Assembly: GCA_017428055.1 (NCBI GenBank)
Contig: JAFRRN010000050.1
Coordinates: 1-64,000, forward strand
Reading direction: 5' to 3'
DNA length: 64,000 nucleotides
From: Prevotella sp.
GTDB taxonomy: Bacteria > Bacteroidota > Bacteroidia > Bacteroidales > Bacteroidaceae
Positions 11,115-38,375 of the stretch are shown here, one piece after another. The stretch's first letter is position 1. Every line of letters starts with the position of its first letter. A model generated the notes under the pieces. It made no database searches. It was not told where the DNA came from and was given only the letters and a program-made list of their open reading frames with translations. The position numbers and the translations under genes were made by a program.

Positions 11115-13163
11115 TTACACATCAGAGAAATGTTGCTTATTGATTAAATGCAACAGGTATTCCACAGCCTTGGGAGCTTTCTCACGAGCCATCAACAACT
11201 TTTGAGTGAATTCCTCCTCTGACATATCTGAATTAAAATCATCCACCAACTCTCGGGGTTCGTCAGAAGTCTTCACCAATGCCAATCCCTTACGCTTCAT
11301 CAGAAACCGAAGAGATGTGCACCCCTTGTTATACTTCGGCTTTACCTTGATTAATTCTTGCATCAAGTTCAGACCAGGGTCTCCGATGTGGAGTTCATTC
11401 AGCATGGCAATCATATAAAGCACCTTCGCGTCTGGCGTTGACATGTCGAACACGTCGCCCATCAAAACATTCACGGCATCAGCCTCCTGGTAGCGTTCGA
11501 GTTTGGTAAGACAGCGCGACTTCACATAGAGTGCTTCTTGGCACTGATGCTGAGCCAGCACACTATCCACGTAATTCAATGCTTGCTCATACTCCCCAGC
11601 ATAGAGGCTTAACAAAGCTACAAGGAATTTTGGTGCCCAATGGTTAGCCTCTTTCAGTTTTGTTGGTATCTCCTGAACACATCCATAGAGATTATCATCA
11701 CAGATGATGGTATCAAGGAAACGCTTTGCCTGTTGCATGGCTTCCTTGATGTCACCATCTTCCGCTTTCTTCTGTACCAACATCAGATATTTCTTGGCAG
11801 CCTCGTCGTAGTCATGATGATTGAGTAACTGATAGACAGCCTTTCCACTTTCAATCTCGTTGTTAATCATCTTCTCGTCGTTATACCCAACAGCATACGA
11901 AAGTACTTCCTTGCTTGTACGTGCGTATTGGGGGATGATACAACGAGAGAGGAACAAACCATCGAGCGAACGAACACGACTCAATGCTACATAGAGTTGT
12001 CCTGCTGCAAACATTCCCTTGCTCAGATCAAGAAACATCTTGTCGAACGTCATTCCTTGGCTCTTATGCACCGTGATTGCCCATGCCAAACGAAGTGGAT
12101 ATTGCGTGAAAGTGCCTATCTGTTCTTTCTTCATCTTACGTGTCTCATGGTCATATTCATAACTGTAAGATTCCCACGAACAACAGGGCACAACGTATGT
12201 GTTTTCACCGTCGATGGTAACTTGGATTTCTTCTTGGCTCAACTTGCTTATGGTTCCAATCGTTCCGTTCGCCCAACGCTTAAATTGGTCGTTTCGGGTA
12301 AACATGACTTGGGCTCCCACTTTCAGTTTCAAGGTCATTTCCACAGGAAAACGTTTCTCCTCAAACTTTCCCTGCACCGTACCCTCGTAAGTATATTCCT
12401 CTGCCTCTATCTCATCAAGTTTGCTTTGGTTAATGGCATCGGCGGTTTTGTTGACAGAAGCCAATGTTATAACCGCCCCGTCTTTCTCTGTAGGTTGCCC
12501 AACACGCTCATTCAAGTGTATCAAGATTTCTGGAGTCACCTTGTTTAGACGTATGTTTTCTAAGATATGAAGAAACTTCTTATCTTCTTGACGATAGATT
12601 TTCTGGAACTCTATCTTCACTAATCGCATTCGCTTGATGGCATCAGCCTTGTAAAAGAAGAAATCTCCCGTATGATAGAGGTCTTTCATTAACTCTCGCT
12701 CTGCACCATACTTCACTACAGGCGGTAATTGAAACATATCGCCCACAAAAACGATCTGTTTGCCACCAAAGGGCTTTGTTGTGCGAAGTACCTTTCGCAT
12801 CGTATAGTCGATGGCATCAATAATGTCACAACGTACCATCGACACCTCATCTATGATAATGGTGTCCGTGTGGAGCAATGTGAGGATTCTTGTCTGGCTC
12901 ATCTTACCCATTGTGCCGGGAGTACAAACATCCATTGGCAAACCGAAGAATGAGTGAATAGTATCTCCACCTGCCAAGATAGCTGCTACACCCGTTGGTG
13001 CCAAAGTGATAAACTGCTTGTCCACCATCTTCTGAACCTTCCGCAAAAACGTAGTCTTACCAGTTCCTGCCCGACCAGTAAGGAAGAAACTGCTATTGGT
13101 GTTGGCAATCAGTTCGTATGCCAACACTTGCTGTTGGTTCTCTTTGTCTATCATGTTTTCCAT
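11115..13163 (-). CDS. Pif1-like superfamily 1 helicase with C-terminal TPR-like region
   Basis: 682 residues. Walker A GRAGTGKTT lies at residues 30-38, LAPTGVAAILAGG at about 54-66, Walker B IIIDEVSM at about 100, and VFVGDMFQLPPV is motif III. AITVHKSQGMTFDKM and YVALSRVRS are the C-terminal helicase motifs. This is a 5'-3' DNA helicase of the Pif1/RecD2 group acting on replication or recombination intermediates. Residues from about 440 on are helical and TPR-like (AKKYLMLVQKKAEDGDIKEA), an addition seen in Bacteroidales versions. It starts 2 bp after the stop of the unknown gene at 13166-13672 and is last of a three-gene operon. Confidence 0.88.
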   Translation of the reverse strand: MENMIDKENQQQVLAYELIANTNSSFFLTGRAGTGKTTFLRKVQKMVDKQFITLAPTGVAAILAGGDTIHSFFGLPMDVCTPGTMGKMSQTRILTLLHTDTIIIDEVSMVRCDIIDAIDYTMRKVLRTTKPFGGKQIVFVGDMFQLPPVVKYGAERELMKDLYHTGDFFFYKADAIKRMRLVKIEFQKIYRQEDKKFLHILENIRLNKVTPEILIHLNERVGQPTEKDGAVITLASVNKTADAINQSKLDEIEAEEYTYEGTVQGKFEEKRFPVEMTLKLKVGAQVMFTRNDQFKRWANGTIGTISKLSQEEIQVTIDGENTYVVPCCSWESYSYEYDHETRKMKKEQIGTFTQYPLRLAWAITVHKSQGMTFDKMFLDLSKGMFAAGQLYVALSRVRSLDGLFLSRCIIPQYARTSKEVLSYAVGYNDEKMINNEIESGKAVYQLLNHHDYDEAAKKYLMLVQKKAEDGDIKEAMQQAKRFLDTIICDDNLYGCVQEIPTKLKEANHWAPKFLVALLSLYAGEYEQALNYVDSVLAQHQCQEALYVKSRCLTKLERYQEADAVNVLMGDVFDMSTPDAKVLYMIAMLNELHIGDPGLNLMQELIKVKPKYNKGCTSLRFLMKRKGLALVKTSDEPRELVDDFNSDMSEEEFTQKLLMAREKAPKAVEYLLHLINKQHFSDV

Positions 13164-13165
13164 AG

Positions 13166-13672
13166 TTATCGCTGTTCTAATGATGGAAGAATTTGAGTTA
13201 AACGAGTATTGAAATCAGGATCAAGAAAACTCTTGTAGCATCCGTCAATGAGACTCTTTGCATGTAAGGCTACTTGTTCTTCAAACACGTAAGTTCTTTG
13301 TGTCTTTGCAATACCCGTCAAAAAGTCCTTGACCATTTGCATAGACTCTGTGCGGATAAAATCCTCATTACGGAAAGTCTTGTCGTAGTCACGTTTTTGG
13401 ATAAGTTCCAACTTTGTACCATTGAAAGCATAGAGTTCAATGCTGTCAATATATGTCCAATTGTGGTAAAGACCAACTTTCTCCACCATGACGATACGGT
13501 CACAGAAGCGCACTCCACAATAATAGCGATGTCCGCTGGCACTTTCGTGTTCATCGCAAATAAACATTCGTTGGCTTTCATCCCAAACAGGGATATGAAT
13601 GCGTGGTGTTCCAAATGTTGGCAAAATGTTGTCAAACAGGTTTTTGTTGATTGCTTTTGTTAGTGTTGCCAT
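13166..13672 (-). CDS. Unknown protein, paralogue of the gene at 13732-14178
   Basis: 168 residues from the ATG at 13672 (MATLTKAINKNLFDNILPTF). Not recognised as a named family. It has alternating beta strands (RYYCGVRFCDRIVMVEKVGL, IDSIELYAFNGTKLELIQKR) and a C-terminal helix (MQMVKDFLTGIAKTQRTYVF). The same plan and the KDFL.G....Q..YV block occur in the neighbouring protein, so the two are paralogues. Its close spacing with the Pif1-like helicase (2 bp) suggests a joint role, but none can be named. Confidence 0.7.
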   Translation of the reverse strand: MATLTKAINKNLFDNILPTFGTPRIHIPVWDESQRMFICDEHESASGHRYYCGVRFCDRIVMVEKVGLYHNWTYIDSIELYAFNGTKLELIQKRDYDKTFRNEDFIRTESMQMVKDFLTGIAKTQRTYVFEEQVALHAKSLIDGCYKSFLDPDFNTRLTQILPSLEQR

Positions 13673-13731
13673 TGTCTTCTTGGTTTTTGTTTGGTTAAAC
13701 TTCGTGTTATTCTTCTCACAAGCAGTCACCC

Positions 13732-14178
13732 TTAAGCCAACTGCTTGCGTTGAGTCTCCTCGATGGCAGACCGTGAAAAGGCAAGGAGATCTTGTTCGCT
13801 GACGTATGCTCCCTGCAACTTCAGCTGTCCCTCCAAGAAGTCTTTCAGCATCAGGATGCTCTGCTCCTTGGCAAAGTACTCAGAGAAGTCTCGCCAGTTG
13901 CTGCCACCCCAAAACTTCTGTCCGATGATCTTGGCTTTTGTTCCGTCCCAGCAGAACAACGTAATGCCGTTCAAGAAGGTACGGGCATAACCTTGCCCGA
14001 TATTGTAGAAAACTGCAAGGCGATTTGACAAGCGGATAGCCTTGTAGTACGTGTTTCCTGCTGCGCTGGTATAACCAAGTGTGAGGTACACGTTCTTGGC
14101 AGCATTGTAAGTGAGTGACTCGCCCGAAAGGGCTGGAAGGCTTTTCGCTACGATGGTCTGAAGTGCGGTGTTGTTCAT
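13732..14178 (-). CDS. Unknown protein, paralogue of the gene at 13166-13672
   Basis: 148 residues from ATG 14178 (MNNTALQTIVAKSLPALSGE); an alternative start at 14205 adds nine residues. It shares with its neighbour the order YYKAIRL, a central strand pair ITLFCWDGTKAKIIGQKFWG and the C-terminal MLKDFLEGQLKLQGAYV. No signal peptide or membrane segment, so cytoplasmic. First gene of the three-gene helicase operon, with a good promoter about 75 bp upstream. Function unknown. Confidence 0.7.
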   Translation of the reverse strand: MNNTALQTIVAKSLPALSGESLTYNAAKNVYLTLGYTSAAGNTYYKAIRLSNRLAVFYNIGQGYARTFLNGITLFCWDGTKAKIIGQKFWGGSNWRDFSEYFAKEQSILMLKDFLEGQLKLQGAYVSEQDLLAFSRSAIEETQRKQLA

Positions 14179-14253
14179 AACGTTCAGATTTACGGTTCCC
14201 ACCACTAAACTTTTGCAGCATCAATCTCGAGGTGGTTTCGATGATTGACGCTA

Positions 14254-14331: not shown

Positions 14332-16110
14332 CTATTTCTTCCTTATATTATAAGCTATCCATTTTTTGGGCTTTGTTTCATCATATTGTTCATAACCAGC
14401 TGTAAAGAATACTTTGTCACCATTAGAAAAATTCGTATAATTTGTTTTCCTCATTTGCAATGGCCATTTAGCCAAATTACAATGGATGTTTTTATAGCCC
14501 TCTGTAGTTTCCACAACAACTCCTTCATACTCCTTACCGGCCACTAATGCAAGGCCTTTTGATTCCCTTAAACTAATCATCTCAGAAAGTTCACTGATAT
14601 AGGCTTTGAGCATTTCTTTCTGCATATTAGAGAAATGCTCTTGTTCAATAGGATGCATACCATGGTTTATTAGCAGAAGTAATTGTCCTTCGGTCATTGA
14701 TGTTGGTTCACATTCACGATGGTTGTACATTTGGCGAAGTGCCCTCACCATATTTGAAAAATCTCTTACCAAAAAACCTTCAGGCAGGCTATTGCCTTTG
14801 TTGCTTCCTTCATAATAAAGTTTGTATAACGCGCCTGAAAAGGCATCCATTGTGGGTTCATTATAACAAATAATCTTTAAAGTTTCAAATTCAGAGACAT
14901 CTTCTGTGGAGGCACTAAATGGTATCAAATCTGGATGATACGATTTGTTAACATTGTTGCGGAGGCGCCCTATTTGTTCTACTAAAACGTCAATCTCCTT
15001 TTGAACTGTGTCGTCAGGGGTTTCCAGTTCTTTATTATTTCTATATGCAATAAGATAGTCTTTCAAATAGCCCATTGTGATTTTGTAACCATCTCCGACC
15101 TTTGATAACAATCCCTTTGACATCAAGGCATTAACACCGTCAGGGATGACTTCAAATTGTTTCGGTCCATCACAAAGAACTGCCAATACATTGCGTTCTG
15201 ATTCCGACATAAAACGACTATTAACTATTTCACTTAAATAGTCTCGTATTATAGTGTAATCGGGCATAGACACCACGTTCTTATTTAAAAAGCAAGAGCC
15301 AACATATTTTTCGAAATAAGGAACGCCTCCAGTCTTATCTATTACAGTATCTCCTATGTTCATTAATAATTTGCGCAAATGTGAATCCTCTATAAGCATG
15401 CATTCATTGTTCCACATGTTCGTGCTTTCCTCTATTTCTAGTGGATATAATGTTACATTCTGTAAGCCACAATTTAATTCTGGAGATCCAACATCTGTAC
15501 ATATTGCACTCCAAGTTGTAGTTCCAGCAATCCAAAACTTCATTTTGCATGACTTATCTGTAGCAGCTCCACGTATCCTTGCAAAATCCGCAGGGCTTTC
15601 CAACGCTTCCAGTAACAAATAGTCAATTTCGTCCAATAATAAAAGAACATATTTTCCTGTTTCTGCAACTTTATCAGCTAAAAAGAATATGGCTTCTTTT
15701 TGATATTCAGTATTCCACTCCTTCATCTGAATCAACATATCTAACATGTCATTAGATACATATAATTTACAACGGCGAGAAATCTTAAAAACTCCTTCTG
15801 GCAACAAGCCATCTGTGCACATTTTTGAGGCTAATAAAGCAGCTAAATATCTGTAGACATCCGCAGTGTTTTTCTTTATTCCTGTTTGGGTCTTTACATC
15901 AAAGTATACAGGATAAGCATTATATTCTTTATTAGAATTAATATGGAATTCCATAGCTTTTAACAAGCATGTCTTTCCAAAACGTCTTGCCCCAATTATG
16001 CCGGCATTCTCTCTTCTTTTAGCACAAGAAACAAGTGTTTCTATTTGGCGTTTACGCCCATATAAATTAGTAACATCTGTAATATCGACTCCTACAATAA
16101 ATGGCTCCAT
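14332..16110 (-). CDS. AAA/STAND-type ATPase with C-terminal OB-like tail
   Basis: 592 residues from the ATG at 16110 (MEPFIVGVDITDVTNLYGRK); a start at 16137 would overlap the upstream stop. The N-terminus YGRKRQIETL is typical of AAA_14/ATPase_2-like STAND proteins. Walker A IGARRFGKTCLL is at about residues 39-50 and Walker B LLLLDEIDYLL at about 156-166. The middle (about 300-500) is helical with a winged-helix-like stretch (VIPDGVNALMSKGLLSKVGD). The last 70 residues (EYEGVVVETTEGYKNIHC, then FSNGDKVFFTAG) resemble a cold-shock/OB fold that could bind nucleic acid. No nuclease or other effector motif was seen. It starts 10 bp after the giant ATPase and must work with it. Visibly AT-rich. 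Confidence 0.8.
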   Translation of the reverse strand: MEPFIVGVDITDVTNLYGRKRQIETLVSCAKRRENAGIIGARRFGKTCLLKAMEFHINSNKEYNAYPVYFDVKTQTGIKKNTADVYRYLAALLASKMCTDGLLPEGVFKISRRCKLYVSNDMLDMLIQMKEWNTEYQKEAIFFLADKVAETGKYVLLLLDEIDYLLLEALESPADFARIRGAATDKSCKMKFWIAGTTTWSAICTDVGSPELNCGLQNVTLYPLEIEESTNMWNNECMLIEDSHLRKLLMNIGDTVIDKTGGVPYFEKYVGSCFLNKNVVSMPDYTIIRDYLSEIVNSRFMSESERNVLAVLCDGPKQFEVIPDGVNALMSKGLLSKVGDGYKITMGYLKDYLIAYRNNKELETPDDTVQKEIDVLVEQIGRLRNNVNKSYHPDLIPFSASTEDVSEFETLKIICYNEPTMDAFSGALYKLYYEGSNKGNSLPEGFLVRDFSNMVRALRQMYNHRECEPTSMTEGQLLLLINHGMHPIEQEHFSNMQKEMLKAYISELSEMISLRESKGLALVAGKEYEGVVVETTEGYKNIHCNLAKWPLQMRKTNYTNFSNGDKVFFTAGYEQYDETKPKKWIAYNIRKK

Positions 16111-16120
16111 ATTAAAATTA

Positions 16121-19100
16121 TTAAAGTGAAAATTCAAGACTTAAATCTCTATGATGAACAAACCACCAACGACGAAAGAGATCAACATTTAGCCTGTAGA
16201 CTTCTCGCGTTTCATCTGTAAACTGACGAAGGACCCTTTTTTCTTCAAGACTTTTTAATGCACGTGTCATATTTAAACGCTTATCATCTGGCAATTTATA
16301 CTTGTCCCATAATCTAACCAATTCATCCATACTTACGCCACGTTCTATTTGAGTACTTTCCCTTATTAAGTAAGAAATACTGGAGATAAGTTGATGTTCT
16401 GCAACATTATCTGGCGATATCTGGTTGTTATGGAAGTTTGTTTCATCTATGGCTTCCCACGTATCACTTTGTTTAGGATGAGTTTCTCCAGTAAGAATCC
16501 TAATTACGTAATCAACTTCGTTATAGCCAAGATGACGCTTTTTATGTGCAACAGCATATTTTCCACAATCAAGACAAATCCATTGTATCCAATATGGTAC
16601 ACATCCAGACAATGCCCTTATATATGCTTTCGCTTTTTCGTCAAAAATGAGGGCATCACAAGCATCAATTAATTCATCTGCATATATTTGAGCAATTTCG
16701 TTAATATGCATTGGACGAGTATTTGTCATTTGCCCTTCAATTCCAAACTCCTTTTCCTTAGGCAGTTCTTTTATATCATAAGTTCCTGCATATACGAAAC
16801 ATGCTTTCGATTTAAGAGCCAAATCTCTTAAGTCAGACATAAATGTAGCATCTACCAGCCCCTCTTTTAACATGGGTCTGATATTTGAAAATTCATCAAT
16901 GGTTATCAAAGGAATAATACCTTTAGAGTTTAGCGTGGCAATTATGATGTCCAAATCGGATTGACGAAGCAATTCCGGCAGTTGATTATTAGCATATCTT
17001 TGATCAATACAGTCTTGTATGTCTTCTGGCAATTTATTATAGATATTAATTTCAATTAAATTAGTCCACAGCTCTGTTACTGTAGAATTCTTAAATGAAA
17101 TCTTTGAGAAATCCCATCTGAAAGTTTTAATTGTTTTGGTTGAATCTTCATGTAATGGTTTGCCATCAATCCTTTCGCATAGATAGTCTAATATTGAAGA
17201 TTTTCCTGTACGTGTCAAGCCATATAAAATATATGTTTGAGTACGGTCTATAGATAGATAATGATTGATTAAAGTTGAGAGTTTTTCTTCACGCCCTTTA
17301 AATATATTTTCTTTTGGTGTATCAGATATTTTCCAAGGAATTTGAATGTCATCCAATAAGACGTCTTCGCTTTCAATTTCATATGTTGCTTCAGATTCAA
17401 TTGGAGTAAGGTCTCTCCCTTGGTATTGTGCGGTAAGTTTAAAAACCACGTCAACAGCCTCCCAATTGGAGAAATCTGCCGAAATAAACTTTTCACCACA
17501 GCAATCACCAGCAGCTAATTCTTGGTTATGGGTAATAGAATAGTCTTTTCCGTTTATAGAAGCAATAACATTAAATGATTGTGCTGTAGAATCTCCAATA
17601 TTCGTCACAACAAAATCTATAACACCTTGTCCTTCTTCTGAAATTTTTATATAACACGGCTCTGGTGATATTTGTAAAATTGGCAAAGTTCTTGCGTCTC
17701 TTTCCTCTATCTGCCGTCCAATCTCTCTTAGCCACTTTTCTTGTAAATGATAAAAGAATATCCTACCATAATACGTAGTTGTATCAGATACAAGTTTTTG
17801 ACTTTTTATTAGAATTTGCTGAGAGCTGACTAAATTTCGATAACGTTCATTTTCTTTTCGACCTGCATAGGGTCGGAGAATGTTTATGATTTCCTGTATA
17901 GAATCAAATGCTAAATTGTCGGTTTTAGACATTAAATCTCTGAACTCACTAACCAACTCCCATTTCGTTTCATATGAGACAATGTCACGTGGACTAAAAT
18001 CCCATGCAAGGCAATCATCCAGCCTTGATTTCAATTCTTTGATCCGTATTTGGCGGTTTTCAAAAGTTTTTCGTAAGAATTCACCTGGAGCATATGTAAT
18101 ATCAACTGATGATTTTTCCATAGTATTGATTATCTCATACGCATTGTCACGGAATCTTATATCTCTCAGTTTATCGTAAAAGGGTCCAGTTCCATCTTGG
18201 TCATTTGCCAAAGTGTTCCAAGCCCTTTCAACAGTAGATCCAATAGCTATACAAGCTCTAAAGAGGACTTTCTGACTTTCTACATTATCATCATTAAGGC
18301 ATTCTTTCAATTTTGCTTTTAAGGTTCCTTTGTACCAATCTGAATCAGGCGTTTTTCCGCCATCGACTTGTGATGCCAAGCTTTCAATTTTTAAATACTT
18401 AAGCAAAAGTTCTTGTAGATACCTTTTCAAATTCAAATCATTATATAATCCCAAGGCTTCAAGGTAGTAACTCTTTGCACTATCACATTCAGCTATTAAA
18501 CGCGCTCTGCTATCTGGATATTGTTGTACAGATTCTGTAATTTTTGATACTAAAGAGTTCCCTTTCATACGAGCATAATGTGCTACACAATGCTTATATT
18601 GAATAGATCCGTCTTTGTTTGCTCTATAAAAAGCAGCCGCTGCATCTAAAAATAATTGAGCTCTTGATTCAAAAGTTTTCGTATTATCTTTGCTTGATCC
18701 ATGTGCTCTGTCATATAATCTATCAAAATCTTGTCCTTCGGAAAACTCGCTGTTGTTCGCATGTTCTTCAACGTCTTGTTGAAGCATTTTACTTACAACA
18801 ATTTTGGAGCTGGTCATTTCATAAACTGAATCAATAAGGAAAGAAGAGGTTGTTTCAGAAGATATCTGGCTGTTTTTTGCACTATTTATCTGATTACGAA
18901 GATTTTCGATAGCGAGGTTTTCTGGTTTTAACCACTTTGCGCAGTCCAAAGCTTGAAGAGCTTCGTCAAATAGCATTATTTTATTCATAATCCTCGCCAA
19001 AGTAATATACAAATGACTTAACGTATTTGGTTTAGTGTCTTCTAATTTCTCATTATAAGCAATAAGTTGAGCTAGACAATTCATCGCAGCTTCGTTATTT

Positions 19101-20440
19101 CCAAGAGCAATTTCAGTATTAACCATTCGATCTAAATAACTTCGCAGATACTTGGGAGTTGGACAGCTAATAGCCAATACTTCATATGAGCGTTTTAGGC
19201 ATTGTTCACGTTCACCATTACGGATTAATCCATCTAATTCTTTCTCAATTTCTCGACATTCGCTTTCAGTCAATTTATTCTTATTTAATGGTAGGGCTTC
19301 TATTGTTGCTTTGTCTGTTATAATTAGAGGTTTACGAGGGGCATTAGAAGGAGTTACCTGTAGGATAGCTGTTGTTGGCACTTCTTCATGAACAGGAATC
19401 GCTTTATAAACAGAACGGTTCTTGTAAAGACTTCTTACATCATCCAAATTTAGACAATCCCCAAAAGAATGCTTTATTCTTGGCTTGATTTTTGCACTCA
19501 GCCGGACAGACATTTCTTTTGCATCATCGTTATCTGGATATTGCTCCAAAATATCTTCCAAAATATCAAATGCCTTTTGATAGGTTCGCTCATTATCACT
19601 TAACAAATCAGCCATAGCAAGTAATTCGCTTATGGGACCAGGCAAACATATGCCAACGGCTTTTGATCGTAAATCTTTAGATCCCTTAGCAGTCCTAACA
19701 TTAGCTAATGTCTTAGTATACACAACATGTATCCCCAAAAGATTATCTGTTTTAGACAAATCATCATCACATATGTCAAATAATGAAAAATATACGCTAT
19801 CGTGCAAATTCTGATCCCAAATCCAACCATGCCTCTCTTTCACTGACATTACAAATCCTACAGCTTTGACCATATTTGAATTATCTTCATCTCCAGAATA
19901 TGCCCTCACAAGAGTTTTTAAAGTTTCTCTAGTTGTGGCTAATGGTTGTGGTCCCAATGCCATAAAAAAAGGATTATTCTTATTTTGTTTAGTCTCTTTT
20001 CTTGATATTGGCTCTATTGGTTTTTCATTTAATGCTTGATTCTTTTTCTCATTAACATGAACAGCTTCTCTTTTTCCTGCTTTTGAATCTATTCTAGTTA
20101 AGTCAACATACCCTTTTTCATATGCAGGAGCATTCTTTCTAACTTGCACTTCTATGACAGTGCTATTTTTTAATCCGTCTTCTTTGAGAGTGTTTCCTGC
20201 TTTCTGCATGGTTTCGTCATTTTGTTCGGTTCTAACGTCTAATGGACGAATAGCTTCTTCAAAATCCATAATACTATCTTCTGAAATAGAAATAGGTTTA
20301 CGTCCTTCCTCAAAAGGACGTATTTTGATACGGGAATCCAATATCTCAAGTATTGTCCCTTCTTTTATACCAAGACGACAGGTAATTCGAATGGGATCTC
20401 CAATCTTGTAATCTTCTTTTATTGCCTCAATATTTGTCAT
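16121..20440 (-). CDS. Giant multidomain ATPase: SH3-like, cold-shock-like, TPR, CARDB-like, AAA, winged helix
   Basis: 1439 residues, cytoplasmic. In order: an SH3/KOW-like start (11-60, YKIGDPIRITCRLGIKEGTI); a polar linker; a cold-shock-like domain at about 190-265 (GFVMSVKERHGWIWDQ, DSVYFSLFDI); a long helical TPR-type region to about 900; a CARDB-like beta sandwich at about 921-1040 (VIDFVVTNIGDSTAQSFNVI); an AAA/STAND NTPase with Walker A YGLTRTGKSS near 1073-1082 and Walker B PLITIDEF near 1177-1184; and a winged helix at the end (VSMDELVRLWDKYKLP). This is the build of a sensor ATPase, with nucleic-acid binding inferred from the cold-shock fold. It has its own promoter (20458-20488) and is followed 10 bp later by its partner ATPase. 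I know no characterised system with this pair. AT-rich, beside an AbiL-like module. Confidence 0.8.
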   Translation of the reverse strand: MTNIEAIKEDYKIGDPIRITCRLGIKEGTILEILDSRIKIRPFEEGRKPISISEDSIMDFEEAIRPLDVRTEQNDETMQKAGNTLKEDGLKNSTVIEVQVRKNAPAYEKGYVDLTRIDSKAGKREAVHVNEKKNQALNEKPIEPISRKETKQNKNNPFFMALGPQPLATTRETLKTLVRAYSGDEDNSNMVKAVGFVMSVKERHGWIWDQNLHDSVYFSLFDICDDDLSKTDNLLGIHVVYTKTLANVRTAKGSKDLRSKAVGICLPGPISELLAMADLLSDNERTYQKAFDILEDILEQYPDNDDAKEMSVRLSAKIKPRIKHSFGDCLNLDDVRSLYKNRSVYKAIPVHEEVPTTAILQVTPSNAPRKPLIITDKATIEALPLNKNKLTESECREIEKELDGLIRNGEREQCLKRSYEVLAISCPTPKYLRSYLDRMVNTEIALGNNEAAMNCLAQLIAYNEKLEDTKPNTLSHLYITLARIMNKIMLFDEALQALDCAKWLKPENLAIENLRNQINSAKNSQISSETTSSFLIDSVYEMTSSKIVVSKMLQQDVEEHANNSEFSEGQDFDRLYDRAHGSSKDNTKTFESRAQLFLDAAAAFYRANKDGSIQYKHCVAHYARMKGNSLVSKITESVQQYPDSRARLIAECDSAKSYYLEALGLYNDLNLKRYLQELLLKYLKIESLASQVDGGKTPDSDWYKGTLKAKLKECLNDDNVESQKVLFRACIAIGSTVERAWNTLANDQDGTGPFYDKLRDIRFRDNAYEIINTMEKSSVDITYAPGEFLRKTFENRQIRIKELKSRLDDCLAWDFSPRDIVSYETKWELVSEFRDLMSKTDNLAFDSIQEIINILRPYAGRKENERYRNLVSSQQILIKSQKLVSDTTTYYGRIFFYHLQEKWLREIGRQIEERDARTLPILQISPEPCYIKISEEGQGVIDFVVTNIGDSTAQSFNVIASINGKDYSITHNQELAAGDCCGEKFISADFSNWEAVDVVFKLTAQYQGRDLTPIESEATYEIESEDVLLDDIQIPWKISDTPKENIFKGREEKLSTLINHYLSIDRTQTYILYGLTRTGKSSILDYLCERIDGKPLHEDSTKTIKTFRWDFSKISFKNSTVTELWTNLIEINIYNKLPEDIQDCIDQRYANNQLPELLRQSDLDIIIATLNSKGIIPLITIDEFSNIRPMLKEGLVDATFMSDLRDLALKSKACFVYAGTYDIKELPKEKEFGIEGQMTNTRPMHINEIAQIYADELIDACDALIFDEKAKAYIRALSGCVPYWIQWICLDCGKYAVAHKKRHLGYNEVDYVIRILTGETHPKQSDTWEAIDETNFHNNQISPDNVAEHQLISSISYLIRESTQIERGVSMDELVRLWDKYKLPDDKRLNMTRALKSLEEKRVLRQFTDETREVYRLNVDLFRRWWFVHHRDLSLEFSL

Positions 20441-20633: not shown

Positions 20634-21794
20634 TCAACATGTAGATAATTGAAATTTTGACATATCAAAATTCACATCGATATGGTCTTCTCTGGCACAG
20701 AAATAGATATTATTATACCAATGTATCTTCAAATAGTAAACATCAGAAATAAGCATATCATCCAATTTTATATAATAGTCTTTATGTGGCAATACTACTA
20801 TCTCTTCCAAGTTATCTTTTATTAGCCACTCAACATTTATTTTGGGTTCATTATCTGTTATGGCTTTCCATACAGAAATACTATTTGCAGGAATAACCAT
20901 TTTGATTTGTGAGTCGTTTTTGAAAACAACCGTATTACCCTTTCTTTGTAAAGAATGAACCTGACTGTTTCCCACCTTATGGTATAAAATGTCACTATGT
21001 TCTAATGAATGATACCCCAACAACCTCAATGTCAATCTATATGAATCAAGATAGGGGTTTCGTAAATAGACTTCTGTGTCATTTGGTTGTGTCGCAAGAC
21101 TATGCCACTTCAAACGATGAGAGTTGAAAATGCCATACCACAGATTTCGGATAAAAGAAAATGCTTGTCCATTTTTGCTGTTCTGCCAAAAACCATGACT
21201 TCGTGCATAGCCATTAATACATTTGTCACCATTACATGCTTTACCCGGTATGGCACTTTGTAGACCGCAGTTGAAATACCGCGTTTTTCCGTTTCGATTT
21301 TCATGACACTCAGATTTGAGGAAGGCTTGCGTGTTATACTCAAAATGTTGGAGAAGATACATTTCAAAACATCTGCTGGAAAAAGCCAAATTGAGATTCT
21401 TATGTAAGTGCCTTTGATGCCGTACTTTTTCAAAAGCTTGCTGATGATGAGGATGATCGTCTTTATCGAACACTACCCAAACCTCAGAGAACACATCCAA
21501 TTGGGCAATTCCAGAATCGACCCAACATTCAGGCATCGGACCTCTCAAAATAACCTCGTTCGTTTTAGTCGGCATGTTCTCCAATTGACGCTTTATCTTT
21601 TTTCGTCCATTAATATCGCTGTCTGCATCTGAAAGACTCGCCGGCACTGGGAATATGCTACACTGATAGTCCAAAGGCCAACGTTCACGTTCCATCCAAG
21701 CTATAAGGTCACGGTAGAAATAAGGTTCAGTCTTCTCTCCTTCACAAATTATGCAGATGGAATAATCTGGTTGTAGGTGTTCAATCTTCCTCAT
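20634..21794 (-). CDS. RloB/AbiLii-like protein with a C-terminal extension
   Basis: 386 residues from the ATG at 21794 (a GTG at 21797 is the alternative). The N-terminal 230 residues match RloB: IICEGEKTEPYFYRDL (about 15-30) and VWVVFDKDDHPHH (about 105-117) are the TOPRIM-like Glu and DxD motifs, and FSSRCFEMYLLQHF is the usual third block. RloB/AbiLii pairs with an AAA ATPase in abortive-infection AbiL systems. Two features are unusual: four cysteines within 30 residues (C163, C176, C187, C192) that could bind zinc, and about 145 extra residues after 240, mostly beta, where typical RloB ends. Overlaps the RloA-like stop by 14 nt. Confidence 0.8.
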   Translation of the reverse strand: MRKIEHLQPDYSICIICEGEKTEPYFYRDLIAWMERERWPLDYQCSIFPVPASLSDADSDINGRKKIKRQLENMPTKTNEVILRGPMPECWVDSGIAQLDVFSEVWVVFDKDDHPHHQQAFEKVRHQRHLHKNLNLAFSSRCFEMYLLQHFEYNTQAFLKSECHENRNGKTRYFNCGLQSAIPGKACNGDKCINGYARSHGFWQNSKNGQAFSFIRNLWYGIFNSHRLKWHSLATQPNDTEVYLRNPYLDSYRLTLRLLGYHSLEHSDILYHKVGNSQVHSLQRKGNTVVFKNDSQIKMVIPANSISVWKAITDNEPKINVEWLIKDNLEEIVVLPHKDYYIKLDDMLISDVYYLKIHWYNNIYFCAREDHIDVNFDMSKFQLSTC

Positions 21795-23013
21795 CACGGA
21801 ACATGTTTTCTATCGATTCAATTTTAGGAAGACCACCAAAACGCTTTGCCATATACCACTCTTTAATGTTCGTGTTTTCATCAACACCATCGAAATCGGC
21901 AAGTGAATATAACTCTGAAGAACCATCCATTTTCTTTTGCATCAGCCAAATCTGATCAAGTCGAAGACTTTTCTCATCCATTAAATTGATGTCATGAGTG
22001 GTTAGTATTAGTTGGGCATGTTTCTTATTGATACGCTCACTCTGGAACATCTTAATAATGAACTCTGTGATATACGTATGAAGAGAGGCATCAAGTTCAT
22101 CGACAAACAAAGTATTGCCCTTATCCAATGCTTCGATAATCTTTATTCCAAGAAGGAAAAGATGACGAGTTCCCAACGACTCATAAGTAGAAGCATTAAA
22201 ATCTACAGAAACAATACTTCCGTCGTTTCTGATTTGGTCATGTACGAATATTAGATCCTTGTATTCGGCTTGGTCACCTGGAATCTTAAAACCTTTTATT
22301 CCTGTATCAAGATAAGACAAGAATTGGAATAACTTTCCTCCATAATGTTTGTGCTTCATAAGTAAATCCTTGGCATTATCCCACAGCATTTTAGTCATAC
22401 TCTGGTTGTAGCTATTCACCATTTGAATATTCTGCATCTCCAAGGCAATGTCCGAAACAACAGGAGTGTTCACTGCCTGTAGAAAACTCAATCCCAACTG
22501 ATTCTTTCGAACCGTACTTTGTGGCAATGTAAAATTGCTTATACCATCCTTAAGTATTAACTTATGTGTGTTATTCGAGTATATCCTTTCAAATAGGACA
22601 ATCTCTTCTTCACCAATTAACTTTGTCAATGATTCTTCTTGAATCTCGACAGCATTAAAAACCAATTTATACGAATAAAGAATGGTGTTTTTATCCAATA
22701 GCCTGATTTTTAATGATGATGGAGCATCTAAAGTATCTTCATAAAGCGAAAAAGGCATATACTCTTTAATACCATCGTTTTCTCCTCTGAAATTACCTTC
22801 TATTAGAAGACGCTGAAAACAATAAAGACCACGAATTAAGTTTGTTTTACCTGATGCATTAGCACCGTATATGACACCAACTTTCAGGCATTTACCGTAA
22901 TCATTGATACGAAAATAATTCTGGTTCTTTGCATTGGTTTCAGTACCCTCCATAGAAAAGACGACTTTCTCTTTAAAAGAATACATGTTCTTAAATTCAA
23001 TATCGTATATCAT
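21781..23013 (-). CDS. RloA/AbiLi-like AAA ATPase (AAA15/OLD-related)
   Basis: 410 residues. Walker A IYGANASGKTNL is at about 48-59, after the family start MIYDIEFKNMYSFKEKVVFS. TLFVDELDASLHTYI is Walker B with the catalytic Glu, and LILTTHDINLMDE is the H-loop, all of the ABC/SMC-like class used in OLD, PARIS and AbiL systems. ATP-driven sensing of infection and activation of the RloB partner is the expected role by family. No TOPRIM is fused here; it is in the next gene. Own promoter at 23037-23044. Adjacent to a WYL regulator. Confidence 0.85.
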   Translation of the reverse strand: MIYDIEFKNMYSFKEKVVFSMEGTETNAKNQNYFRINDYGKCLKVGVIYGANASGKTNLIRGLYCFQRLLIEGNFRGENDGIKEYMPFSLYEDTLDAPSSLKIRLLDKNTILYSYKLVFNAVEIQEESLTKLIGEEEIVLFERIYSNNTHKLILKDGISNFTLPQSTVRKNQLGLSFLQAVNTPVVSDIALEMQNIQMVNSYNQSMTKMLWDNAKDLLMKHKHYGGKLFQFLSYLDTGIKGFKIPGDQAEYKDLIFVHDQIRNDGSIVSVDFNASTYESLGTRHLFLLGIKIIEALDKGNTLFVDELDASLHTYITEFIIKMFQSERINKKHAQLILTTHDINLMDEKSLRLDQIWLMQKKMDGSSELYSLADFDGVDENTNIKEWYMAKRFGGLPKIESIENMFRDEED

Positions 23014-23080: not shown

Positions 23081-24202
23081 TTAATCAAAACTTCTTTCAT
23101 ATTGGGCTATTAACTGCTTTAGAGTGTCTTTTATCAGTCTGCGGAGTTGATGAGGTTGCATCACTTCAAGGTTTTCGCCATACATCAGGATGCGACCTCG
23201 CAATTCACGATTGGGTTCTATCGTTAATGTGACTTCTCCATAACAGCCATCTTCGTGTTCGCCAAAGGGGAGTGTTTCTTCTTGGCTATGGTGCAAGGGC
23301 TTGGTGAGAAGTAATCCATGCTGATATTTCGTCTTGGTGTGGATAACCACTTGCTCTACTTTTGCTCCCTTTTCGTGGGTAACACCTATTATGTTACGAA
23401 AGAAGTTCTGATAAAAACCTTTTTCTGCTGGTATGTATTCCACATCATCAACCTCGCAAACCTCACCAACGATTCTATCCAACGGCACATTATAGGCTTG
23501 ATAAGGTTCGCGCATTCCCGAGCTTTGCTCGCCTACCCGTAGCCTTTCTGCCTCTCCGAACACAAACCATCGGCCATTATACTCCTTGAGGAATTGCGGA
23601 TGGAAAGTCAAGGTGAACGTCTCTTGGCCGAAAGGTTGATAGTCAAATCTCAACACACGTCGATTCATGATCGCCTGATTGAAGAATGGCAACAAATGAA
23701 TATTGGTAAGGTTTTGTTCAAGGCTGGAACGGATATAGCTTGTACCGCTCTCCGCCTCTTTATGAGTATCAAGTAGCAACTGGGTGTTCTCGAAGAAAGA
23801 AGAAAACCAAGTCGTGGGCAAGATGCCCGCCGATGCCTTGCAGAACGAGACATAATCTTCCAAGGACTTCTGTACCACCGCATTGCGTTCTGCCTCCAAC
23901 GGGTCATCGTTCTCGCCAACATATCTGAAAGCCTTGCCCTTTCCTCTCTTTCCATTATCCACAATGCAACCAGGGCAAGTTCTTTCCAAAGCATCCAGCA
24001 CTTCTGGGAAGGCTTTTTTTAATTCCCCATATCCCACCTCACTACTATAGGATATTTTCTCGTAATAACCTTCAGGCCTTCCATAATAAGCAGCGAGGAT
24101 GTCGGCGTATGCCAAGTAATCCCGCTTCATCAATTCCCGATAAATCAGGTTTACAAACTCCGCTCTCAATCCGCATCCTGCAAAGATATTCTTACTTGGC
24201 AT
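23081..24202 (-). CDS. WYL-domain transcriptional regulator
   Basis: 373 residues. The N-terminal half contains a divergent DNA-binding region (RAEFVNLIYRELMKRDYLAY). The WYL-type sensor domain spans about 180-270: VLRFDYQPFGQETFTLTFHP, then LKEYNGRWFVFGEA. A C-terminal WCX-like extension ends with LRGRILMYGENLEVMQPHQL. WYL regulators often sense nucleic acids or nucleotides and repress neighbouring phage-defence genes (BrxR, CapW types). Its position just upstream of the AbiL-like pair suggests it controls that module. A TATCTTTG box lies inside its own first codons (24181-24188, minus), so a shorter start is possible. Confidence 0.85.
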   Translation of the reverse strand: MPSKNIFAGCGLRAEFVNLIYRELMKRDYLAYADILAAYYGRPEGYYEKISYSSEVGYGELKKAFPEVLDALERTCPGCIVDNGKRGKGKAFRYVGENDDPLEAERNAVVQKSLEDYVSFCKASAGILPTTWFSSFFENTQLLLDTHKEAESGTSYIRSSLEQNLTNIHLLPFFNQAIMNRRVLRFDYQPFGQETFTLTFHPQFLKEYNGRWFVFGEAERLRVGEQSSGMREPYQAYNVPLDRIVGEVCEVDDVEYIPAEKGFYQNFFRNIIGVTHEKGAKVEQVVIHTKTKYQHGLLLTKPLHHSQEETLPFGEHEDGCYGEVTLTIEPNRELRGRILMYGENLEVMQPHQLRRLIKDTLKQLIAQYERSFD

Positions 24203-33038: not shown

Positions 33039-36000
33039 ATGAACGTGAAGACCATCCATTCATTCCGCTGGGCATCTCTGATGGTGCTGATGCTCGCCAT
33101 CACACAGACGATTTGCGCGGTGACAGTAGACATCCCCACCAAGGCAGGGAATTACATTTCCTGGAACGATGCCACAGGCAGCCATTTCACCGTGGAGAAC
33201 AACGGTGCCAACGTGGGCAGCACGGGAAAGAACACCACATTGAGTTTCAATGTCAACAACACCCAACAACAAGACTACCTGCTCACATTCAAGACGGGGT
33301 CGAAGATGGAAGCCCAAATGAAGGTGACATTGACTGATGCCCTTGGCAACGTGGCATTGGACCGAAACGTGAAGATAGAGAACACCAATAGTTGGTCGCC
33401 CACCGTCCAACACCAATTCATCCTCGAACAACTGCAACGTGGAACATACACTTTGAAGTTCACCGTGACGCAGACAACGGGAAACTATGCGGGCAACTGG
33501 GGCGACTTGGCATTCTACACCCTCGACAACATAGATGCCATCCCCGGCAAGTTGGCACTGGCAAACGGCAGTTATGGCGGCGGGGTGGTTAATGAGGGTG
33601 CCAACGTGGGCTACATTCGCGATGGCGGCATGGCATCCTATACCTTCAAGAACACGCAAGAGGGTGTCTATATGCTCGCCATGGAGGTGGCACGATATGG
33701 CACGGGCGGCACCGTGGACATTACCGTTTCAGATGCGGAGACACAGGCTGTAGAGGCACAAACCACATATACCGTGGCAGCGGATGCCCCCGGCAGCTAT
33801 ACCCCAGTGGCCATCGCCCTTCCGGGGGAGATAGCCAAAGGCCTGCACATCCTGACATTCCGTTTCCATGATGGTTCGGGATATATCTGCAACTACCGCG
33901 AGGTGGAACTGCGTTATTATGCCAAGCACCTGGCAATCATCAACGGGATCAGCATTTCGGGGCAGACCGTCACAAGCGGCAATGACACCGATTGGCAGTG
34001 CAACCTACCCGCCTCATACAATGCGCCAACCACGACATTCAAGGTGGATAAAGCTTTCGGAACAGTTTCTTGCACCAGCCCGGACATCGACATCACAGAC
34101 CTTGGCGATGGCACATTCTCCATCCCCACCCCCGCAAGGGGCGAGGCAGCCATCATCAAGATGGCACTCACCGCCGACGAGGACGCAGGAGCTGCCGCAC
34201 CCAAGCGTGAATACACCCTCCGCCTTTTCCACATTGGCGACATCACCATGACCGACTTGTCGATTGACGGCACGGCGGTTGACTTGACGGAAGCCATCAA
34301 CCAACCACCCTACAAGGCCACATTCAACGGCAACATCTATACCCAGTTGCCCAAGGTGGTGGCAAGATTCATCGACGGGACGACGGTCAACGGCCAATGT
34401 ACAGCGGTTGATGGAATGGAAGCCACATACACCATCGACGGGAAAATGGGCGATGACACCCGAACCTACCAGCTCACTGTATGTGGTTTACACCTATATA
34501 ATAAAGGTGAAAACGACCAAACGGTGACGCTGAAATACACCGGCGCGGGGAAGAACAATAATGGATGGAGCGACGGCCTCTATGCCATCTCACGCATCGG
34601 GGACGGCTGGGAAAACAGCAGTTTCAAGATGGACACTGGCAGTTACACACTATCCGTACCCGCCAATGTGGTGGTGAAGCAACTCATCTTGAAAGACTTC
34701 AACGCCAATTACAATGGTGGCGAACTGACAGACGTGGCATCGCAAGGCGCAAAGGCATGGATTCCCACCAAGCATGACTACCAAGAACCCGATGCGACGA
34801 TGTATGACCTCATCATCAACATCGACAACCATGAGGCAGGACAGCCCATCACCTTCACGCTGAACGGCGGCGGACAGCCCGTGGCATGGTTTGAACTGAC
34901 CGTCGAACAAGTGGCAATATCCTCTGCCCCCGTGCTGAAAGGAACAAATGTCACCCCCACCACGAACAAAAACCATTGCGTCGTGCAACTGACATTCGAC
35001 CGCGAAATGACCGACACCGAGGCACAAGTCGTCTCCGACACAGGCATCGCTAACACGCTGAAAGCCCCTGGCGGCTCCACCATCTTGGAGTTTGCCGTGT
35101 GGAACTTGCCATACAACAGCCATCACACATTCATCGTGCCAGCCAACAACGCCAAAGACCGTTACGGCAATGGCAACACCGAGGCCATCAGCCTCGACAT
35201 CAACGTGGGCAACAAGGCAGAAGTGAGGAAAGCCACTTACGACTATGTGGTGGGCAACGTGGCAGAATGGAAGAGGGCATTGGGTGCCGTCAACGCATCC
35301 AATGGCAACAGCACGGCGACGCGCAAAACCATCTTCGTGCGCAATGGCGACTATGACTTTGGAAGCGAGGAGCAGTCGCTGAAAGCATATAATGTCAGCA
35401 TCATCGGCGAGAGCCGCGATGGGGTTGTCTTTCACGGCAACCGTGATGGCATCACGAACCCCATCCTGAACATCAACAATACGGGAGGCAATTACCTACA
35501 AGACTTCACCGTTCGAAACGATAAGGACTTTGGCAAGGCCCGCTCAGGCGTGGGTGTCGCCATCTCGGGCGGGAAGAAAGCCGTGATGAAGAACATCGCC
35601 ATGCAAAGCCAACAAGATACACAAGTGACAGGCGAGAGTGGCTATTACCTGAATTGCAAGATTTACGGGGCGGTAGATTACATCTGCGGTGGCGGCAACC
35701 ATTTCTACGACCACTGCGAACTGGTGATGACCAACCCCGGCCCTATCACGGCACCCGCCACAAGCAGTATGCTGAAATGGGGATACGTCTTCCAACATTG
35801 TACCGTGAATGGCTATGGCAGTTTCAATGCCGACAAGAACTATGACCTTGGGCGACCTTGGCAGAACGAGCCTCGCGCCTATTTCCTCCACACACAGATG
35901 AATGTCAGGCCATCGGATGCCGGCTGGCGGGGCATGAGCACACTGCCCACCCATTTCTATGAATACAAGTCGGTGGACAAGGATGGCAACCTGCTCGACC

Positions 36001-38375
36001 TGTCTGTACGACAAAACTCACCCACCAGCACCAACCACTACTCCCCGATTCTCTCTGACGAGGAGGCAGAAACGTACACGGTGGAAAATGTGCTTGGCGG
36101 TAGCGATAGTTGGTTGCCAACAGAAGAGACCGTTACCACCGCAGCCCCCAACGTGAGAGTGAACGGCATGACATTGACATGGGATGACGTGGAAGACGCC
36201 CGATGCTACGTGGTGTTCCACGAAGGGGCATATATCGCCAACCTGACAGACCGTACATTCACAGTCAATGAGACTGGTCGTTACACCATTCGCACCGCCA
36301 ACTTGAACGGAGGCTTGGGAGAGGGAACGGATGTCGATGTCACAGAGGACGAGGAACCCATCACCTTGAAAGAGAAAACACCCGCCTTCCCCGGCGCAGA
36401 GGGGTACGGACGATACGTGACAGGCGGACGAGGGGGCGAGGTGTACCATGTCACCAACCTGAACGACTCGGGCACCGGCTCCTTCCGCTGGGCATGTGAG
36501 AAGAGCGGGACACGTACCATCGTGTTTGACGTGAGCGGCACCATCCACTTGAAATCACAACTCAAACTGCGCAATGGCAACGTGACCATCGCGGGACAGA
36601 CCGCCCCCGGCGACGGCATCTGCGTGGCAGACTGGGACTTTACCATCGCCGCCACCAATGTCATCATCCGCTATATGCGCTTCAGGCCCAGCGACACATC
36701 GGGCGGCGAGCCCGACGGACTGGGGGGCATGGACGGCAAGAACGTCATCGTAGACCATTGTTCGGTGTCGTGGAGCGTGGATGAATGCCTCTCTGTATAT
36801 GGCAACGAACACATGACAGTGCAATGGAGCATCATCTCGCAAAGCCTCAGGAACTCCACCCACGTGAAATCCGCACACGGCTATGGCGGCAACTGGGGAG
36901 GCAAGGGTGCCACGTACCACCACAACTTGCTCGCCCACCACGACTCACGAACGCCACGTTTCGGCAACCGCCCCACCTTTGTGCAGCAAGACACCACCGA
37001 CTATCGCAACAATGTCATCTACAACTGGGCGGGCAACGGATGCTATGGCGGCGAGGGAATGAAGGTCAACATGGTGAACAATTACTACAAGCCCGGACCG
37101 GCAACCGACGGGCGGGCAACGGGTTCCCGCCAGCCTCTCGCCTATCGCATCTGCGGTCTGGGCGTATCGACCAAGGAGGGAGACGGAAGCTATCACATCT
37201 GGGGCAAATACTATGTCAACGGAAACGCAAACCCGGACTATCCCGACTTGGTGAACAAAAACTGGGAGATGGGCATCTACCCGCAAATCACCTCGACCAA
37301 CTGGGGGTATACAGCCACCACCAAGGACACCATGCGGATAGACGAGCCGCTGCCTTTCATCTACGTAACCACCCATACGCCGGAGCAAGCATACGAGAAA
37401 GTGCTGGCTTACGCCGGCGCATCGCTCCACCGGGACAACGTTGACGAACTGGTAGTCAGCGACACACGAAACCGCACGGCGACATACACAGGCAAGGGCA
37501 GCGGCGACTGGCCGGGCATCATCGACACTCCGTTTGACCTGAAACCGATAGGTGCGGACGACGACTGGACACCCTGGCCCATGCTTAACAGCACCACCGC
37601 CCCGCAAGACACCGACGGCGATGGTATGCCCGACGGCTGGGAGGATGCCCACGGGTTGGATTCACACGACAAGACCGACGGCATCATACGCAACGAGGAG
37701 GGGTATACCAACCTGGAACTATACCTCAACTCAATCGTGGCAGACATCACCGCCGCCCAAAATGAGGGTGGTGAACCTTTGGGATTCATCGAATATGCCA
37801 CGGAAGAGGACATCACGGGGGCATTGGCCATCCCCACCGACGCGCTCAATTTGGACAAGGCAGAGATTAAGTTGAACGCAAACGGCAAGAATGCCGCCAA
37901 GGTATTGAACAACTCCTTCGACAGTTTCAGCCACGGCGACATGGCATCGTTCCTCTTGAATTGCACGGAATCGGGCATCTACTCATTCAACTTCGATGCC
38001 GCCACCACCCGTAGCGACTTCAAGCTCCAATTCACTATCACGGACGCGACGAGCGGGAAGGTGGAGACCAACAAGACCATCAACATCAGCAACACGGGCA
38101 ATTGGCAGTCGTATAAGAGTTATTCATTCGACACGTCCGACATGGGCGAGGGCATCAAACGCCTCGACATGACCTGGCTAAGCAGCAATGGGCAATACAC
38201 GGGCAACGTGAAGAACATCGCCATCACCCTCAAGTCGCCAACCGACATCAAGGCGAAAGAGGATGGCGACAGCCAAAAGGAACAACCCATATACAACCTA
38301 CAAGGGCAACGCGTGACACAGGCGACCCGCCCAGGCATATACATCGTGGGGGGCAAGAAAACCATCATCCATTAA
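33039..38375 (+). CDS. Pectin methylesterase (CE8) - pectate lyase (PL1) fusion, secreted
   Basis: 1778 residues. After the signal peptide (about 1-28) come two CBM-like sandwiches (30-300) and further beta modules. The CE8 methylesterase lies at about 728-990, with QDTQV, GAVDYICGGG (the DFIFG-type Asp) and LGRPWQ (catalytic Arg) all present. A short Fn3-like spacer follows. The PL1 lyase is at about 1114-1487 (FPGAEGYGRYVTGGRGGEVY, VDHCSVSWSVDE, RTPRFGNRPTF). Then a calcium-type DTDGDGMPDGWEDAHGL (about 1524), another CBM-like domain (1600-1740) that resembles the first, and the sorting tail IYNLQGQRV...GIYIVGGKK. It should de-esterify homogalacturonan and cleave the product in one polypeptide at the cell surface. 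Confidence 0.9.
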   Translation: MNVKTIHSFRWASLMVLMLAITQTICAVTVDIPTKAGNYISWNDATGSHFTVENNGANVGSTGKNTTLSFNVNNTQQQDYLLTFKTGSKMEAQMKVTLTDALGNVALDRNVKIENTNSWSPTVQHQFILEQLQRGTYTLKFTVTQTTGNYAGNWGDLAFYTLDNIDAIPGKLALANGSYGGGVVNEGANVGYIRDGGMASYTFKNTQEGVYMLAMEVARYGTGGTVDITVSDAETQAVEAQTTYTVAADAPGSYTPVAIALPGEIAKGLHILTFRFHDGSGYICNYREVELRYYAKHLAIINGISISGQTVTSGNDTDWQCNLPASYNAPTTTFKVDKAFGTVSCTSPDIDITDLGDGTFSIPTPARGEAAIIKMALTADEDAGAAAPKREYTLRLFHIGDITMTDLSIDGTAVDLTEAINQPPYKATFNGNIYTQLPKVVARFIDGTTVNGQCTAVDGMEATYTIDGKMGDDTRTYQLTVCGLHLYNKGENDQTVTLKYTGAGKNNNGWSDGLYAISRIGDGWENSSFKMDTGSYTLSVPANVVVKQLILKDFNANYNGGELTDVASQGAKAWIPTKHDYQEPDATMYDLIINIDNHEAGQPITFTLNGGGQPVAWFELTVEQVAISSAPVLKGTNVTPTTNKNHCVVQLTFDREMTDTEAQVVSDTGIANTLKAPGGSTILEFAVWNLPYNSHHTFIVPANNAKDRYGNGNTEAISLDINVGNKAEVRKATYDYVVGNVAEWKRALGAVNASNGNSTATRKTIFVRNGDYDFGSEEQSLKAYNVSIIGESRDGVVFHGNRDGITNPILNINNTGGNYLQDFTVRNDKDFGKARSGVGVAISGGKKAVMKNIAMQSQQDTQVTGESGYYLNCKIYGAVDYICGGGNHFYDHCELVMTNPGPITAPATSSMLKWGYVFQHCTVNGYGSFNADKNYDLGRPWQNEPRAYFLHTQMNVRPSDAGWRGMSTLPTHFYEYKSVDKDGNLLDLSVRQNSPTSTNHYSPILSDEEAETYTVENVLGGSDSWLPTEETVTTAAPNVRVNGMTLTWDDVEDARCYVVFHEGAYIANLTDRTFTVNETGRYTIRTANLNGGLGEGTDVDVTEDEEPITLKEKTPAFPGAEGYGRYVTGGRGGEVYHVTNLNDSGTGSFRWACEKSGTRTIVFDVSGTIHLKSQLKLRNGNVTIAGQTAPGDGICVADWDFTIAATNVIIRYMRFRPSDTSGGEPDGLGGMDGKNVIVDHCSVSWSVDECLSVYGNEHMTVQWSIISQSLRNSTHVKSAHGYGGNWGGKGATYHHNLLAHHDSRTPRFGNRPTFVQQDTTDYRNNVIYNWAGNGCYGGEGMKVNMVNNYYKPGPATDGRATGSRQPLAYRICGLGVSTKEGDGSYHIWGKYYVNGNANPDYPDLVNKNWEMGIYPQITSTNWGYTATTKDTMRIDEPLPFIYVTTHTPEQAYEKVLAYAGASLHRDNVDELVVSDTRNRTATYTGKGSGDWPGIIDTPFDLKPIGADDDWTPWPMLNSTTAPQDTDGDGMPDGWEDAHGLDSHDKTDGIIRNEEGYTNLELYLNSIVADITAAQNEGGEPLGFIEYATEEDITGALAIPTDALNLDKAEIKLNANGKNAAKVLNNSFDSFSHGDMASFLLNCTESGIYSFNFDAATTRSDFKLQFTITDATSGKVETNKTINISNTGNWQSYKSYSFDTSDMGEGIKRLDMTWLSSNGQYTGNVKNIAITLKSPTDIKAKEDGDSQKEQPIYNLQGQRVTQATRPGIYIVGGKKTIIH

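Follow-up and report, generated by a model that had tools for sequence, protein, structure and literature searches.

What might a bacterium do with a 1439-amino acid ATPase whose sensor-like repeats stand in front of its ATPase domain? The question is raised by 64,000 nucleotides of Prevotella sp. DNA (GenBank assembly GCA_017428055.1, contig JAFRRN010000050.1, positions 1 to 64,000; hereafter the window). An intact frame on the minus strand (16121..20440) encodes this giant sensor ATPase, and it is followed on the same strand by the gene for a partner ATPase of 592 amino acids (14332..16110). The pair is probably a previously undescribed anti-phage alarm system, and we consider a defence role fairly likely. 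Directly observed are the complete motifs of both ATPases, the strict pairing of the genes in the loci found, their location within a defence hotspot, evidence of purifying selection and the mosaic make-up of the sensor.

Two STAND-type ATPases in one operon

The giant frame is real and uninterrupted, as a preliminary description of this DNA had stated, and homologues and their alignment agree with it. Most of the domain order proposed there also holds. An SH3/Sm-like barrel (residues 1-66; 20243..20440, minus strand as for all features of the pair), with strands predicted at moderate confidence, and a cold-shock-like block identified by profile comparisons (residues 190-267; 19640..19873) make up the head. 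They are followed by a predicted helical region with TPR repeats (residues 268-916; 17693..19639; 318-391 mostly unmodelled), a beta-sandwich (residues 918-1031; 17348..17689; "CARDB-like" in the earlier wording) and a STAND-type, ATPase_2-like P-loop ATPase (residues 1041-1345; 16406..17320). The cold-shock-like block is a moderate assignment, and the C-terminal part (16124..16405), which has a conserved VDLFRRWW motif, is a winged helix by position only.

Walker A and Walker B, earlier placed near the C-terminus, are intact in all six aligned giants, and so is a GxP-like motif (SGCVPY, 6/6). A GxP motif after the core of the nucleoside triphosphatase (NTPase) is taken as a STAND hallmark, and a fold search matches the ATPase folds to known STAND-type ATPases. 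STAND proteins usually have their sensor repeats C-terminal to the NTPase, and here the repeats are N-terminal to it. The earlier comparison with STAND ATPases that carry TPR sensors thus fits loosely; the ATPase type agrees and the order of the repeats does not.

The partner, too, is a STAND-type ATPase, and it carries a helical, effector-like tail; the preliminary description did not include this, nor the apparent head exchange and the defence hotspot described below. Its ATG at 16110, ten bases past the stop of the giant, is the start used by all homologues, and a TTG at 16137 is probably not the real start. Walker A, Walker B and a GxP-like motif, GG(V/I)P, occur in 7/7 aligned partners. 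Fold matches agree with the ATPase assignment in a list that covers residues 8-369. The tail comprises a helical domain (14548..15018), with helices between residues 374 and 527, and a small OB-like barrel at the C-terminus (14335..14547) that is found in five of seven partners and on which KH-S1 and RuvA rows in the fold list bear. The helical domain contains an invariant arginine and histidine, R468 and H473 in a 601-amino acid numbering (codons 14734-14736 and 14719-14721), in an R-x4-H arrangement present in all seven partners, and H473 is their sole invariant histidine. An R-x4-6-H motif in an all-helical domain is the HEPN signature, and on this pattern we regard the tail as HEPN-like, a putative and unproven RNase.

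Several results weigh against a HEPN tail or an immune ATPase. Four partner tails have no HEPN match in Pfam. Aligned to two HEPN families with hhalign, the tail scored below shuffled sequences, though in a comparison without power: the sequence sets were of low quality (15 and 3 members, each with one or more wrong frames), and the positive control, HepT against HEPN, also failed. In the 50 printed fold rows, none is a HEPN or cold-shock chain by description, one domain filling each printed list. Fold matches of the partner include TnsC and Orc/Cdc6, which are not immune proteins. Models of PADLOC-DB 2.0.0 (2023) gave 0 families for the giant at E<=0.1; for the partner they gave only PDC-S01, PDC-S60 and AbiLi (E 2.7e-4 to 0.02), within its first ~120 residues.

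Distribution of the pair

The pair is rare. Pattern scanning of 84,980 species genomes, sensitive to close relatives only, found six homologous loci: uncultured Prevotellaceae RUG405 (L002), Bacteroidetes RUG13549 (L003), Bacteroides rodentium (L004), Parabacteroides faecalis (L005), Xylanibacter ruminicola SIG140 (L006) and uncultured Prevotellaceae RUG483 (L007). Both genes are kept in all six, and a WYL gene lies directly 3' of the pair in five, the exception being L003. A dN/dS of 0.12 indicates purifying selection. In Bacteroides rodentium the 5' part of the giant is broken into two frames (L004:8422-13189); in Parabacteroides faecalis the giant is one frame.

No match to the giant occurs among 59 further relatives or 394 further genomes of the phylum, and none of full length among 392 further genomes of the order. 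Profile A1 gave weak matches in 13 of the latter, mostly at zinc-ribbon positions, and the one of these taken further, in genome G871 (locus L049), is a real distant pair. Among 399 genomes of the family, the partner matched its own genome, G533 (which shares the proteins of L007 and is not counted as independent) and four genomes with weak ATPase-only matches. Query P0001 matched 72 of 395 phylum genomes, nearly all listed rows lying inside its TPR repeats, and none was accepted as a relative. The family of G871, searched with query P0002, consists of one genome. Plasmids yielded no relative of the giant, of the partner, or of the distant partner and distant ATPase part; phages yielded none of the giant; and no match was confirmed in viral contigs scanned with the giant, A1, A2 and P0001. 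We recognised no paper on the pair in the open-licence literature, a scope within which absence is not proven.

A defence hotspot

All six loci sit at one common Bacteroidales site. In the window its upstream edge is a WYL/WCX regulator (23081..24202, minus strand), assigned from Pfam, PADLOC and locus comparison. Its downstream edge consists of two small paralogues of 157 and 187 amino acids (13732..14205 and 13166..13729) and a helicase (11115..13163) that we take, from reading its sequence, to be Pif1-like, all on the minus strand; these three genes follow the pair in 6/6 loci. Between the regulator and the giant, on the same strand, are the defence genes AbiLi (AAA_21; 21781..23013; PADLOC E 1e-77) and AbiLii (RloB-like; 20634..21797; PADLOC E 1.3e-15, Pfam RloB).

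The 187-amino acid paralogue is present in six of 60 relatives, counting the genome of the window. Four of the other five are readable (the G025 contig stops too early), and the giant is absent from all four. The interval from the WYL gene to the two small paralogues encodes, in L044, a DUF1016/YhcG nuclease (no more than a candidate in PADLOC) and HATPase genes; in L045, a type III CRISPR system (Cas10, Csm3, Cas1) and a HepT-like gene; in L046, AbiLi/AbiLii and a HATPase gene; and in L047, Cas10/Cas6 together with PtuA/PtuB of Septu. The upstream WYL protein is 64-72% identical to that of the window in these four loci and in L006. The site is a defence hotspot, because relatives without the pair hold defence or candidate-defence cargo there between the same edges.

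PADLOC was also run on 17 hand-picked neighbouring proteins from L002-L007. Strong matches are AbiE (L006) and IetS-like (L004), with strong candidate-system matches to PDC-S02 (L002) and PDC-S01/S27 (L003), a locus whose AlbA-type protein additionally matches a pAgo model. Two loci count against a uniform defence setting. Neighbours in L005 have partial or weak matches only (best Orf5, 1e-17, ~90 residues), and those in L007 have one weak match. Two of the 17 proteins from L005, one from L002 and one from L006 have no match at E<=1e-5. Residence among defence genes is nevertheless confirmed for the pair by AbiL in the window and by the neighbour scans. The defence setting suggested in the preliminary description thus stands, with hotspot residence and the cargo of relatives added to it, and the homologues are not mainly in housekeeping operons.

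The site also bears on a rival in which the two proteins are an Orc/TnsC-like replication or mobile-element ATPase pair that moves or maintains the island and merely rides in the hotspot. We think this improbable: no transposase was noticed beside the pair in frames read by eye, with no search aimed at transposases, and the remaining cargo of the site is defence or candidate defence.

Base composition sets the region apart. Positions 14-24 kb of the window have 35-39% G+C and the remainder mostly 42-57%, with a second low-G+C stretch at 50-54 kb. In the six relatives the pair has 34-35% G+C versus 48-55% in flanking genes.

Distant relatives share the architecture in part

The window giant aligns with the L049 protein over residues 909-1295 (to 1100-1514; 97%, E 1.9e-11). 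Three alignments on the same diagonal (8-41 to 7-41, 195-315 to 420-533 and 1393-1428 to 1599-1631) are each below 1% alone, and a fifth lies off it (284-351 to 902-971). Four of five giant segments score best with their L049 counterpart, strongly only for ATPase with ATPase (97%). The L049 partner is without the helical tail, so not every pair has this effector. A frame that overlaps the 3' end of its gene (L049:6714-7112) looks membrane-spanning, is cut by the contig end and is perhaps a different effector.

On plasmid pMETHO01 of Methanomethylovorans hollandica, proteins METHO_RS12440/12435 are homologous to residues 1-602 of the L049 protein (26.7% identity, E 2e-32). Like the giant they have an Sm/SH3-like start, a cold-shock-like domain and TPR repeats; unlike it they have no ATPase. 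A protein with the Sm/SH3-like and cold-shock parts comes first, then the TPR protein, then UvrD-PD-(D/E)XK, SNF2-helicase and HSP90-like genes, with csa3 also in the setting. This looks like an archaeal defence operon with the same head.

The head is a predicted nucleic-acid-binding module

Residues 1-65 of the window giant are 78% identical to L002 and L006, and the archaeal relative has a weak Hfq match (E 0.004) at the same end. The SH3-like segment shows no preference for its L049 counterpart in profile comparison, a point against our main reading.

Residues 190-267 are likely to be a cold-shock domain, as predicted from profiles. The profile of the three giants that share this head (window, L002 and L006) has a cold-shock domain as its sole Protein Data Bank match at E<=10 (E 0.19). 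With two distant relatives added, seven of eight matches (E<=10) are cold-shock chains, the best at E 0.0018; the eighth is ParM (E 0.0021). The L049 protein has a Pfam CSD match that falls short of the cut-off (E 0.001), its archaeal relative matches a cold-shock protein (E 7.4e-5), and a profile comparison of just this pair with cold-shock proteins reaches 95%. The evidence on the OB or cold-shock fold of the preliminary description thus leans toward its presence; the role suggested for it there, sensing phage or damaged RNA/ssDNA, is putative. It would be wrong if the segment were an unrelated small domain, which we hold to be unlikely. For that alternative, the segment is unmodelled (pLDDT about 25), lacks a cold-shock Pfam match when taken in isolation, is weak when the window lineage is taken alone, and in hhalign against cold-shock proteins reaches, with the same-head giants, a non-significant 3.9% probability, exceeded by one of 100 shuffles. 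Against it are the sole database match of the three-giant profile, the resemblance of distant relatives to cold-shock domains at the matching place, and the segment's weak preference for the L049 segment that corresponds to it, compared with four others from that protein.

The heads of L003, L005 and L007 are different: they have a helical block and a zinc ribbon (Zn_ribbon_3 in three of six giants, best E 4.9e-7) and no recognised cold-shock block. Nucleic-acid binding need not, then, be a shared function, and the pair could be a defence system whose head recognises a phage protein, the barrels only docking to a nucleic-acid or translation complex and the tail being no nuclease. Characterised Avs sensors recognise phage proteins, and an Avs4-portal structure is among the fold matches listed. 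We judge this rival rather unlikely, in view of the small barrels of nucleic-acid-binding type that recur in the head, in 5/7 partner tails and in distant relatives.

A large frame in a separate genome of the same genus (L087; G005 contig 27) starts with a weak cold-shock match (E 2.3e-4); it measures 585 amino acids in the retrieved stretch and 1191 in the search row.

Heads appear to be exchanged on a conserved engine

By its pattern of identities the window giant is a mosaic, the first ~580 residues siding with one lineage and the rest with another. Identity to L002/L006 is 78-82% over residues 1-65 and 370-520, versus 21-25% and 46-52% respectively to L003/L005/L007. Over residues 545-1439, identity is 63-64% with L003/L007, 56% with L005 and 44-45% with L002/L006. 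One breakpoint at residues 582-587 fits 193 of 236 informative sites (left 60:9, right 34:133), and the best of 2000 shuffles fits 158; shuffling treats sites as independent, so the statistic is descriptive and not proof. In the partner, 51 informative sites go with L003/L007 and 23 with L002/L006. Residues 1201-1380 of the giant are nearest to L005, so one more exchange may have taken place. Rates that vary along the protein are the alternative to exchange, against which weighs the much less uneven identity between L002 and L006 (83-86% in the head, 64-81% in the rest).

L004 and L005 have 95.2% DNA identity over the 8.8 kb that run from the 3' part of the giant through the partner and WYL genes to the small pair and the helicase, versus 81-90% in matched pieces further 5'. 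The head seems to have been swapped between lineages on a conserved engine.

Relation to known systems

The pair is a variant of STAND/NLR-like immunity and not a member of Avs or bNACHT; we file it so because the repeats precede the NTPase, against the usual order. With the archaeal ATPase_2-type STAND NTPases (2qen, 2fna) and NLR resistosomes it shares a P-loop ATPase, Walker A and B and a GxP-like motif, and with the resistosomes, which are immune switches, the same kind of use. It differs in having head and repeats before the ATPase and two STAND-type ATPases per operon. AVAST (Avs) and bacterial NACHT proteins are large ATPase-plus-repeat proteins in defence islands; the pair likewise has such a protein amid defence genes, but its giant has no PADLOC match, its effector-like tail is on the second ATPase and its order is reversed. 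A bacterial counterpart of paired sensor and helper NLRs is a tentative idea that we think rather doubtful. It would have two different STAND ATPases in one operon, one bearing an exchangeable nucleic-acid-sensing head (two head types on a shared engine) and the other an RNase effector, and strains would redirect the alarm through head recombination, trigger and weapon staying as they are.

In Type I CoCoNuT systems, too, a defence NTPase protein carries an N-terminal cold-shock-like OB fold; their GTPases are of the McrB type and are partnered by McrC (PMC11090510). No McrB-type family is among the Pfam matches shown (E<=1) for the window giant and partner. NTP-dependent conflict systems include STAND NTPases as well as cold-shock domains, and OB domains are listed there under nucleic-acid-targeting effectors; the portion of that survey at hand describes no protein of the giant's order (PMC7159879).

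Proposed mechanism

We give about even weight to a WYL-controlled abortive-infection system with a nucleic-acid-sensing head, a sensor ATPase and an ATPase-effector partner. The two-barrel head of the giant would bind a nucleic-acid or nucleic-acid-bound infection trigger, and the signal would pass through the helical repeats and the sandwich to the C-terminal STAND-type ATPase. Nucleotide exchange there may activate and assemble the partner, whose R-x4-H tail would then act, most likely as a HEPN-type ribonuclease, and halt the infected cell. The WYL regulator might keep expression low until the cue, on BrxR-type precedents: according to the abstract of PMC9122601, the WYL protein BrxR, which regulates a phage-defence island, acts as a repressor.

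The same regulator admits a stress or toxin-like operon cued by DNA damage instead of phage. The WYL gene lies directly 3' of the pair in most loci, and WYL factors are tied to the DNA-damage response as well as to phage defence in the accessible portion of PMC10693628. Rarity and hotspot residence suit defence better, and 48% of BrxR homologues adjoin known phage-defence systems (PMC9122601, same part), which leaves the stress operon with little probability.

The best-known bacterial STAND sensors recognise phage proteins. Should the abortive-infection model be true, it would add a nucleic-acid-sensing branch to bacterial STAND immunity and divide sensor and effector between two STAND ATPases of one operon. 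Since natural alleles differ in their heads, the ligand of the head can be tested directly, and the hotspot beside the Pif1-like helicase is a practical place for finding more Bacteroidales defence genes.

Other features of the site and the window

The small paralogues (13166-14205) are in tandem, ~27% alike, and mark the hotspot edge in 10/10 other loci compared; they have no Pfam, PADLOC or NCBIfam match. L044 (5202-11635) and L046 (5884-13363) contain repeated pairs of a large protein (437-913 amino acids, C-terminal HATPase) and a protein of 350-420 amino acids with, as read by eye, an 'IWIDDEW'-like receiver start. One of the large proteins was scanned and has no PADLOC match; the pairs are possibly undescribed defence cargo. 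Downstream of the hotspot in L004, a frame that is relaxase-like by eye (21368-22576) may be a sign of a mobile element. A 1778-amino acid frame of the window (33039-38375) lies where G+C is high and is accompanied by many overlapping antisense frames.

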